Origin: Blepharisma japonicum
Lineage: Eukaryota > Ciliophora > Heterotrichea > Heterotrichida > Blepharismidae
Length of the DNA: 64,000 nucleotides
Reading direction: 5' to 3'
NCBI GenBank assembly: GCA_949751835.1
Contig: CATKHK010000026.1
Span: 124,001 to 188,000 of the forward strand
In this document: positions 26,188 to 28,898 of the stretch, one piece after another
Position numbering within the stretch: position 1 is the first letter of the stretch
Layout: each line of letters starts with the position of its first letter
Made by a program: the position numbers and the translations under genes
Notes under the pieces: model-generated
The model's database searches: none
What the model saw: the letters and a program-made list of their open reading frames with translations, nothing else
Told to the model about the DNA's origin: nothing

Positions 26188-27807
26188 ATGTAAAACTTAC
26201 TTAGGTCTAATTTGCTCAACACTTCTACAGAGTCTCACTCCCCCTCCAAATCAAATATCGGCCCCTATCATCTTGGCCGCACCATCGGTGAAGGGACATT
26301 CGGAAAAGTCAAGCTCGGAATCCACACTTTAACGGGCGAAAAGGTCGCAATAAAAATTTTGGAAAAAGACCGCATCTGTGACGTGGCCGATGTCGAGAGG
26401 GTTTCTAGAGAGATCCATATCCTCAAGCTGATTCGGCACCCCAATATCATCCAATTGTATGAGGTAACCCTTACTTAGATCATTGAAACTCCAAAAAAGC
26501 TGTACTTAATCATGGAATACGTAAACAGTGGCGAGCTTTTCGACTACATAGTCAAGCATTCAAGGTTAGAAGAAGCGGAAGCCTGCAAAATCTACCACCA
26601 GATTATTGCTGGGATAGAATACATTCATAAGTTGAATATTGTTCATAGAGATCTGAAACCAGAAAATCTGCTTTTAGATCACAACAAGAATATAAAAATC
26701 GTGGATTTTGGTCTTAGCAACACTTATAAGCCAGATGAGCTCTTAAAAACGGCTTGTGGCAGTCCTTGCTATGCAGCCCCAGAAATGATTGCAGGAAAAA
26801 AATACGCAGGCATTGGAGTCGATATATGAAGCTCAGGCGTCATTTTATTTGCCATGATCTGTGGGTATCTGCCATTTGAAGACCCAAATACTTCGCAGTT
26901 GTATAAAAAAATTTTGGCTGGGGATTACCATTGTCCGAAGTTTATTTCAAATTCAGCTAAAGAGTTTTTGAAAGGGATTTTAAACACTGACCCTGCAACT
27001 CGTTGGAATATCGAACAGATAAGGAAACATGCTTGGTTTACCCAGATTGCTCAAGATGTAAGCTTAGGGATTCTAGTGGGGTATGATAATATTTCAGTCG
27101 ACCAAAGCATTTTAAAGCAGCTTGAAAAGTTTGGGTATGACCTGGAGCACACAAGAAAATGCTTAGAAGCAAACAAGCATAACCATGTGACAAGCGCTTA
27201 TTATTTATTATTGAAAAAACATTTAGATCAAGGTGGCATTTCAGTTGCAGATTATTCTTACATGTCAGAGCATGAGCTAGCTCTTATGTCAATAAAACCA
27301 AATTTAAAGCTAAACAAAACTCTGGCTGTAGCTGCTCCTCATCCTCCACAAGACAAAGGTCAAGTCCTCACTCCTTTTCCAAGACACCGAAAGTACATTG
27401 AAGCATCTGTATCAAGAAGAGCTGAAAGCATAGGGAACAATAAAGATTATGATTTTATCAACCAATTATTTGCAACCCAAAACCTTCATAAGAAAAATGC
27501 TTCGCAGCACGTCGCAAAAAGTTCATCTAAAGGTAAAGAAAGATATTCAGCTTCCCCTAACACGAAAAACTCGAAATCAAAGCAAATGACTTATCGATTT
27601 CCTAATAAAAAAATAGCGACTCCAAGGCCACCAAGTGTTTCTAAAAATTTTGAAGATAAAAGAAGAGGGAGAAGCAGCATAAATGACAGTTTTGGGAAAG
27701 GTCTAGATTTAAATATAACCTATAGGTTTAGTCCAAGAGCATCCTCAGCAATTGATGGGAAAAAAAGATATAGGTCTAAGAGGGAATCTTCCTTGGGAAT
27801 CAAATAG
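26188..27807 (+). CDS. SNF1/AMPK-related kinase whose ATG is created by splicing
   Basis: Spliced product 529 residues with two introns (26190-26204 and 26464-26478). The start codon is A26188, T26189 and G26205: removing the first intron gives ATG TCT AAT, with an in-frame TAA just upstream. Motifs are [53 protein letters not shown] and TGA-Trp at 26827 (VDIWSSGVI). After the kinase lobe a UBA-like autoinhibitory domain follows ([28 protein letters not shown]). The tail is basic and Ser-rich. It belongs to the same family as the gene at 673-2278 but lacks the AMPK-type C-terminal domain. Confidence 0.9.
26190..26204 (+). other. 15-nt intron splitting the start codon
   Basis: Reads gtaaaacttacttag. 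The unspliced RNA reads ATG TAA; the spliced RNA reads ATG TCT. First-codon phase-2 intron. Confidence 0.8.
26464..26478 (+). other. 15-nt intron, kinase gene
   Basis: Reads gtaacccttacttag with an in-frame TAG; removal gives [18 protein letters not shown]. Confidence 0.9.
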
Positions 27808-27971
27808 CATATTGCCATAAATTTTATTTAAGCAAATCTGATTTCTATTATATCTGTAAATAATGACTAATAAATATGAAATTGCTCGCATTTTTGCTCG
27901 CCTCGATTGCATTAGCTGCAATCTACAATATAGATTTAACAACAAACGCCAGAATTAATCCGGGAGGATCA

Positions 27972-27987
27972 TCTATTCTTGAAGTCA
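27972..27987 (+). repeat. 16-bp direct repeat, left copy
   Basis: Sequence tctattcttgaagtca, identical to 28229-28244 and in the same reading phase; starts exactly at codon 33 of the inhibitor. Confidence 0.85.
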
Positions 27988-28011
27988 ATCAATCAATTTT
28001 ATTCAGAGAGT

Positions 28012-28209
28012 TTATTGCTCTCCCCAATCATCTTTTCCTGCAAATTTTGACAGGTAAATCTTCACCGTTTTTTCTAGATGTTCCTTTTCTTCTATAATAG
28101 GCAAGTCTTCACACGGAGTCGAATAGCCAAAAAAAATTCCATATTCGCTTATTCCCAAGTGTTTTTTGGGTCCCTGGGCAGCTCTTATTGGTTTGTTTTC
28201 TTTGGACAT
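28012..28209 (-). CDS. 65-residue reading frame inside the segment that splits the inhibitor gene
   Basis: ATG at 28207-28209, TAA at 28012-28014, complete within the 257-bp segment, with about 20 bp on each side before the direct repeats. The product is charged and looks protein-like (MSKENKPIRAAQGPKKH, YGIFFGYSTPCEDLP, SKFAGKDDWGEQ), with no low complexity. No family recognised. The frame stays open upstream of this ATG, but only as the antisense of the inhibitor, so I start it at the Met inside the segment. Confidence 0.4.
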   Translation of the reverse strand: MSKENKPIRAAQGPKKHLGISEYGIFFGYSTPCEDLPIIEEKEHLEKTVKIYLSKFAGKDDWGEQ

Positions 28210-28228
28210 TTTCGCGCTAAAAATAAGT

Positions 28229-28244
28229 TCTATTCTTGAAGTCA
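28229..28244 (+). repeat. 16-bp direct repeat, right copy
   Basis: Second copy of tctattcttgaagtca, 257 bp from the first. Bases just outside differ, so the identity is limited to 16 bp. Confidence 0.85.
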
Positions 28245-28513
28245 CCTCAAATCCTTCAACAGGATACATGTGGTACTTTATTCCATCAAATTCAGCAAAA
28301 ATCTCAGTCGATGACCCAAGAGGAACCTTTATAGCTCCAGTGACAGAGCTGACAGGAGCACCAGGGAAGCAAAGATTTACGATATCATGCAGTCAACTCT
28401 GTGTAGAAGGTGATATACTTGAAGTTATTTTAGCCTTGCAGCGCCCATGGGAGCAAGCTCCAATTGATATTAAAAAAGTTTCAGTTGAAGTAACTAATGA
28501 TCAGTTAGATTAA

Positions 28514-28898
28514 AATTAATCCGAATTAAAATAATATATATTTCGAGATATTTTGGCTATTTTTACTAATGATTATTTTCAGTGATAAAAATTATATAAA
28601 ATCAGTCAAGCCCAAAATTTGAAACTTATTAGGAAGATCTAATACTAATGAATTTAATTTTGAGCAGAATTATAATTTACAAAATTTATATCACAAAAAA
28701 TATAAGATCTAACTTTATTCTCGATTAAAGGATATCCTGATTGCTCTCTAAATTAAAATTATTTATTTGGCTTAGAGTAATTTTTTAAGATGAGCCGAAT
28801 TTGTCAATATCATTAACTGAATTTTGATATCTAAGGTATGGCAATTATTAAGTTTGCAGTTATTAAAGCCATATATTTTTCATAATTAGATGAACGAG
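28514..28898. other. Convergent intergenic region
   Basis: AT-rich, 385 bp between a rightward and a leftward 3' end. Nothing recognised. Confidence 0.6.

Follow-up and report, generated by a model that had tools for sequence, protein, structure and literature searches.

The chagasin gene located at positions 27876-28513 (plus strand; 638 bp with its interruption) of the 64-kb stretch of Blepharisma japonicum DNA analyzed here (hereinafter, the window) is split by a segment that, with high confidence, can be identified as a non-autonomous, internally deleted copy of a LINE of the AP-endonuclease type, inserted antisense to the gene. With this assignment, an odd interrupted gene turns into an insertion that is readable in mechanistic terms, and copies of LINEs are seen to reach coding DNA in an apparently somatic ciliate genome. 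An internally deleted LINE copy is an element of a known kind, and it is unusual in such a genome.

The left part of the gene (27876-27986, plus strand, 37 codons), with the translation MKLLAFLLASIALAAIYNIDLTTNARINPGGSSILEV, comprises the start codon, a segment that by eye resembles a signal peptide and the first strand of the inhibitor. The right part (28229-28513, plus strand, 94 codons and a stop codon), which is translated as SILEVTSNPSTGYMWYF...NDQLD, on its own matches the Chagasin family inhibitor I42 profile (PF09394) with 35.1 bits in the profile search, at a cut-off of 27.2. The hallmark of the I42 chagasins is an NPTTGY-like loop, and the I42 domain of the interrupted gene has such a loop, NPSTGY, as seen in the alignment with the paralogues. 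Entered as separate pieces, the two halves together line up end to end with four distinct open paralogues, with SILEV as the only shared stretch, which bears out the proposal of the preceding sequence-only reading that the inhibitor is divided between the left and the right side of the segment (the alignment covers four distinct genes; row L044 duplicates the gene of row L041, and the paralogue at C4:733856 was left out). Altogether, PF09394 is found in six places of the genome (45.2 Mb, 224 contigs), including the window gene; the fifth paralogue, at C4:733856, also has an open frame, and five open chagasin paralogues thus remain elsewhere in the genome. At C4, positions 733856-734712 accommodate a tandem pair of different open PF09394 genes. 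The gene in the window is broken as read because the offset between the direct repeats that flank the segment (257) is not divisible by 3, the left half runs into a stop codon at 28097, and the right frame has no ATG before 28268 (in an ORF list that includes ATG starts only). All that can be read of the broken gene is a frame of 73 residues that ends in foreign sequence; judging from its sequence, the gene should yield no secreted inhibitor.

The direct repeats between which the segment had been noticed are exact 16-bp copies of TCTATTCTTGAAGTCA at 27972-27987 and 28229-28244 (both on the plus strand), which contain a single TA, as that reading had pointed out, start 257 bp apart and enclose 241 bp (27988-28228). 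Within the 64-kb window, this is the sole exact direct repeat of at least 16 bp at a spacing of 100-599; two others reach 14. No inverted repeats of at least 12 bp were found in 27800-28600.

On the minus strand, the segment consists of the first ~206 nt of the LINE family (5′ leader and the start of ORF1) joined to its last ~39 nt (a stem-loop and a tail of TTGA repeats). The 5′ end (28023-28228) includes a 19-nt leader, ACTTATTTTTAGCGCGAAA, the ATG and the first ~62 codons of ORF1, and is followed, in sense order, directly by the 3′ end (27985-28023), which is composed of the stem-loop GGAGAG-CAATAAA-CTCTCT and GAATAAAATTGATTGATTGA, and matches the tails at C195, C13 and C29; the final three bases of the tail (27985-27987) are common to the tail and the duplication. 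Comparisons with C2 to one side of the junction and with C195 to the other leave one base ambiguous, 28023, at which the pairing of the terminal stem-loop begins. Of the four tails that were folded, three are predicted to form this stem-loop and the tail at C29 is not; taken alone, the fold of the window tail is not unusual (z -1.54). A search of the C2 flank and the insert against Rfam at gathering scores returned 0 matches and hence no known RNA family at this threshold.

The 65-codon minus-strand frame that had been described as complete (28012-28209, stop codon included) indeed starts with an ATG (28209-28207) and ends with a TAA (28014-28012), but it stays open further upstream, up to an ATG at 28269 inside the right part of the chagasin gene (85 aa), so that its upstream boundary is set by no stop codon. 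A search for this frame elsewhere in the genome, the check that had been proposed along with it, reveals the N-terminus of a LINE ORF1 and thereby identifies the segment; at the junction, sequence of the 3′ end supplies the last codons and the stop.

A DNA search of the B. japonicum genome with the 638-bp interrupted gene as the query detects eight places, including the window copy itself (C26). Positions 28018-28228 are identical to C2 in 210 of 211 bases, and all or part of this region is matched at C13 (89%), C14 (90%), C29 (80%) and C45 (72%); the leftmost 39-43 bp of the segment (27985-28027) match the tails at C195, C13 and C29. The 5′ end of the window copy begins within a few bases of the start of the other copies. 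Pattern searches for the tail yielded C195 and C29 only when strict, and C13, C26 and C195 when looser; at C195, the family tail is present and the ORF1 start has no match. Both ends occur together in three places, C26, C29 and C13, with a different breakpoint at each. No full-length intact LINE with both of these ends was found in the genome searches, and accordingly the linkage between the 5′ and 3′ ends rests on the C13 element, which is decayed and about 1 kb long, and on C29. The autonomous partner may no longer exist, may be confined to the germline or may be missing from the assembly.

The segment is assigned to a small LINE (non-LTR retrotransposon) family of the Blepharisma genome; domains located next to homologues of ORF1 and of the 3′ coding part suggest that the family encodes an endonuclease and a reverse transcriptase. 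The ORF1 query (109 residues) produces 17 matches in the genome, including its own source and two overlapping matches at C40. At C6, an ORF1-like frame (633555-633878, minus strand) lies upstream of an Exo_endo_phos_2 domain (PF14529; 632268-632630, minus strand) on the same strand; among the matches listed, this element has no RVT_1 match. At C186 and C144 as well, an ORF1-like frame precedes an RVT_1 (PF00078) match on the same strand; the match at C144 does not reach the curated cut-off. Six places in the genome, its own included, match the 3′ coding part of the C13 element, and the one at C8 is located ~0.9 kb downstream of an RVT_1 match. When the segment ORF was compared with a set of 30 RVT_1 loci with flanks of up to 1.5 kb, supplemented with larger stretches at C176, C6 and C25, only C186 was matched, and weakly (E 0.048). 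No Pfam family matches ORF1 above the cut-off. A CCHC-like motif was noticed, by eye only, at C172.

Direct repeats flank all four tail-bearing copies: they are exact at C26 (16 bp), C195 (16 bp) and C13 (15 bp), and imperfect at C29 (10 bp exact; 17 of 18 by eye). An empty site for one of these insertions is available at C20 (~57.7 kb), where a paralogue of the gene that is hit at C195 carries a single copy of the respective 16-mer, with homology continuing across it at 91% and 97% identity; in the stretch concerned (L078), positions 1045-1504 align to the left flank at C195 and positions 1489-1854 to the right flank. Given the flanked tail-bearing copies and this empty site, the 16-bp repeat in the window is best interpreted as a target-site duplication. 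For the chagasin locus itself, the insert-free comparison consists of the paralogues at the protein level only. C20 includes five similar stretches (88-97%); in the one that was inspected, the empty site is preserved.

At all four tail-bearing copies, the targets end in TGA or TTGA and agree with (TTGA)n over 3, 3, 5 and 4 bases; across the window, 2.2% of the sites agree with (TTGA)n for at least 3 bases, a figure that assumes the phase of the tail. These sequence matches suggest pairing between the tail and the nicked target, by which targets could also be chosen. The insertion would then proceed by target-primed reverse transcription: the LINE endonuclease would nick the chagasin gene at a site that ends in TGA, the UUGA tail of the RNA would pair with the nicked strand, reverse transcription would start at the paired tail, and completion of the second strand would duplicate 16 bp of the target. 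The interior might have been lost when the reverse transcriptase jumped from the terminal stem-loop base to the 5′ part of the RNA or, alternatively, through a deletion either in the donor or after insertion. If the deletion preceded the insertion, the 3′ part that was kept points to a candidate minimal recognition signal of the LINE, namely, one stem-loop and the tail. The near identity to C2 and the otherwise open halves of the gene suggest that the insertion is young.

In a variant of this scenario, which is compatible with the main reading and which we entertain tentatively, the LINE copy was longer at insertion and lost its interior later, through end joining or somatic IES excision. Such events have precedents: Blepharisma LINE genes are reported to contain IESs, with parts of the endonuclease domain excised (PMC9942856), and the bdelloid LINE Hebe of Adineta vaga is described as having only copies that are not 5′-truncated, most of them with microhomology deletions (PMC2861651). 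Hebe is a close parallel also in that the 5′ ends are kept and interior DNA is lost, as in the segment, although according to the same account, Hebe is mainly subtelomeric and its deletions involve microhomology, whereas the window copy is intragenic and its junction includes one ambiguous base (PMC2861651). The difference in breakpoints between C26, C29 and C13 is likewise compatible with later loss. However, the window junction, with its single ambiguous base, contains no TA and is positioned at the foot of the terminal stem-loop, which is what a jump of the reverse transcriptase could leave, and the near identity of C26 to C2 allows little time for subsequent decay.

That the segment is a (nascent) internal eliminated sequence, which is cut out from one TA of the duplication to the other in some macronuclear copies and kept in the consensus, appears unlikely. 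The 16-mer does contain a TA, about three quarters of the IESs of Blepharisma stoltei are bounded by TA-containing repeats and partial excision occurs at some LINE loci of that species (PMC9942856), and excision would leave a seamless chagasin frame; but a TA is expected by chance in 16 bp at about one-third GC, the segment is retained in the assembly, the chagasin flanks occur at no other of the eight places, and other LINE loci of B. stoltei are described as lacking a dip in coverage (PMC9942856). That filler DNA was copied into a double-strand break and that the repair generated the 16-bp duplication is very improbable. Such an origin would fit the mosaic structure and the one-base overlap at the junction, and the fragment at C14, which breaks a gene for an M14 carboxypeptidase and around which no direct repeat of at least 7 bp was found in the 70 bases examined at each end, exemplifies a fragment that lacks a duplication. 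Filler would nevertheless leave unexplained the repeats around the four tail-bearing copies, with exact repeats of 15-16 bp recurring at C13 and C195, and a single element family accounts for both parts of the segment, which are its 5′ and 3′ ends in the correct order and orientation. The least credible possibility is a nested host gene, to which the open frame with ATG and TAA on the opposite strand had given rise, or an assembly chimera: the frame is the N-terminal start of a LINE ORF1 cut off at the junction, and a target duplication at the ends of an element is not expected in a chimera.

An IES as the primary explanation was set aside because the ends, orientation and duplications match those of a LINE, and an IES origin is not needed for the anatomy of the segment. 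With respect to known Blepharisma IESs (PMC9942856), the segment shares a TA-containing direct repeat at the ends and a frame that would be restored by removal, but differs from them in that it is part of the assembled sequence, has LINE ends and lacks an inverted repeat of at least 12 bp in 27800-28600. In the somatic genome of B. stoltei, LINE sequences are present and some loci, but not others, are partly excised; it has been conjectured that foreign DNA without suitable sites for the excisase may stay or be excised only in part (PMC9942856). Given that the duplication contains a TA and that partial excision of LINEs has been published, the segment may be excised in part of the nuclei, and the locus offers a defined place for the published idea of partial excision of LINEs as IESs. 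A more specific and rather doubtful scenario is that this LINE mini-element is becoming an IES: by chance, the duplication would include a TA, the excisase would cleanly remove the element from some macronuclear copies, and chagasin would be expressed from those. If this were true, a retrotransposon, rather than a DNA transposon, would have given birth to an IES.

The window is likely to be macronuclear. TGA encodes an amino acid in the neighboring long frames, GC content along the window is 27-37%, and 168 overlapping exact 24-mers of CCCTAACA repeats are found in the genome, compared with none for the reversed control; among the matches listed, CCCTAACA is present in the first 100 bases of six contigs and in the last bases of C6. 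In these features, the window and the genome agree with the macronuclear genome of B. stoltei, for which UGA coding for Trp, CCCTAACA telomeres and 33.5% GC are reported (PMC9942806, PMC9942856). The somatic genome of B. stoltei also holds LINE/RTE-X and APE-type LINE repeats, and the family described here resembles those LINEs in the APE/LINE-type endonuclease and reverse transcriptase that it probably encodes, its location in somatic contigs and the truncation of some copies, whereas the passages on LINEs in those accounts describe neither internally deleted short copies nor an insertion into a gene (PMC9942856, PMC9942806).

Short elements made of both ends of a LINE are known as SIDEs and include the R2 and R2/R1 SIDEs of Drosophila (PMC3414825), Persaeus, a SIDE derived from CR1/Zenon (PMC6740152), and TbRIME, which is also given as a SIDE (PMC3414825, PMC6740152). 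SIDEs are described as rare, and the hosts listed from earlier work are fruit flies, a mosquito and Trypanosoma brucei (PMC6740152). Like these elements, the segment joins the 5′ end of a LINE directly to the 3′ end without the interior, encodes no reverse transcriptase of its own and is flanked by a target duplication (PMC3414825, PMC6740152), which is 16 bp long in the window copy compared with 14 bp for the R2/R1 SIDEs (PMC3414825, PMC6740152). Unlike SIDEs, it resides in a ciliate host and an apparently somatic assembly, only ~39 nt of its 3′ part are kept, and each copy has its own breakpoint, none common to two loci having been found. The same deletion does not recur at two loci, the breakpoints at C26, C29 and C13 being different; the low copy number (three places with both ends), together with these differences, does not support a propagating SIDE family, and in the absence of a shared deletion form, the careful name is ‘internally deleted LINE copy of SIDE type.’ Among the literature matches listed, there is no report of a SIDE in ciliates by title, which does not prove absence.

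The tail-less LINE fragment at C14 (495801-496326) lies within a gene for a zinc carboxypeptidase (M14), whose right part covers profile positions 125-281, with some of the gene sequence seemingly replaced (by eye); this fragment presents a filler-like contrast to the window copy, and tail-less copies behave differently. At C45, no repeat of at least 10 bp was seen in the surrounding stretch examined. The element at C195 (7771-8944) is ~1.2 kb long, has the same tail combined with a different 5′ part that contains simple repeats, is flanked by the 16-bp duplication and interrupts a gene that by eye resembles those for ARM-repeat proteins. At C2 (879796-880168), where no LINE 3′ end was seen, the stretch directly upstream of the LINE 5′ end (L002, 1230-1498) appears richer in G+C by eye and has one match in the genome, namely, itself. 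At this locus, the beginning of the LINE ORF1 (~118 residues) continues in frame into an ABC transporter (ABC_membrane, 70.3 bits; ABC_tran, 30.7 bits), of which it may be a LINE-derived N-terminal extension.
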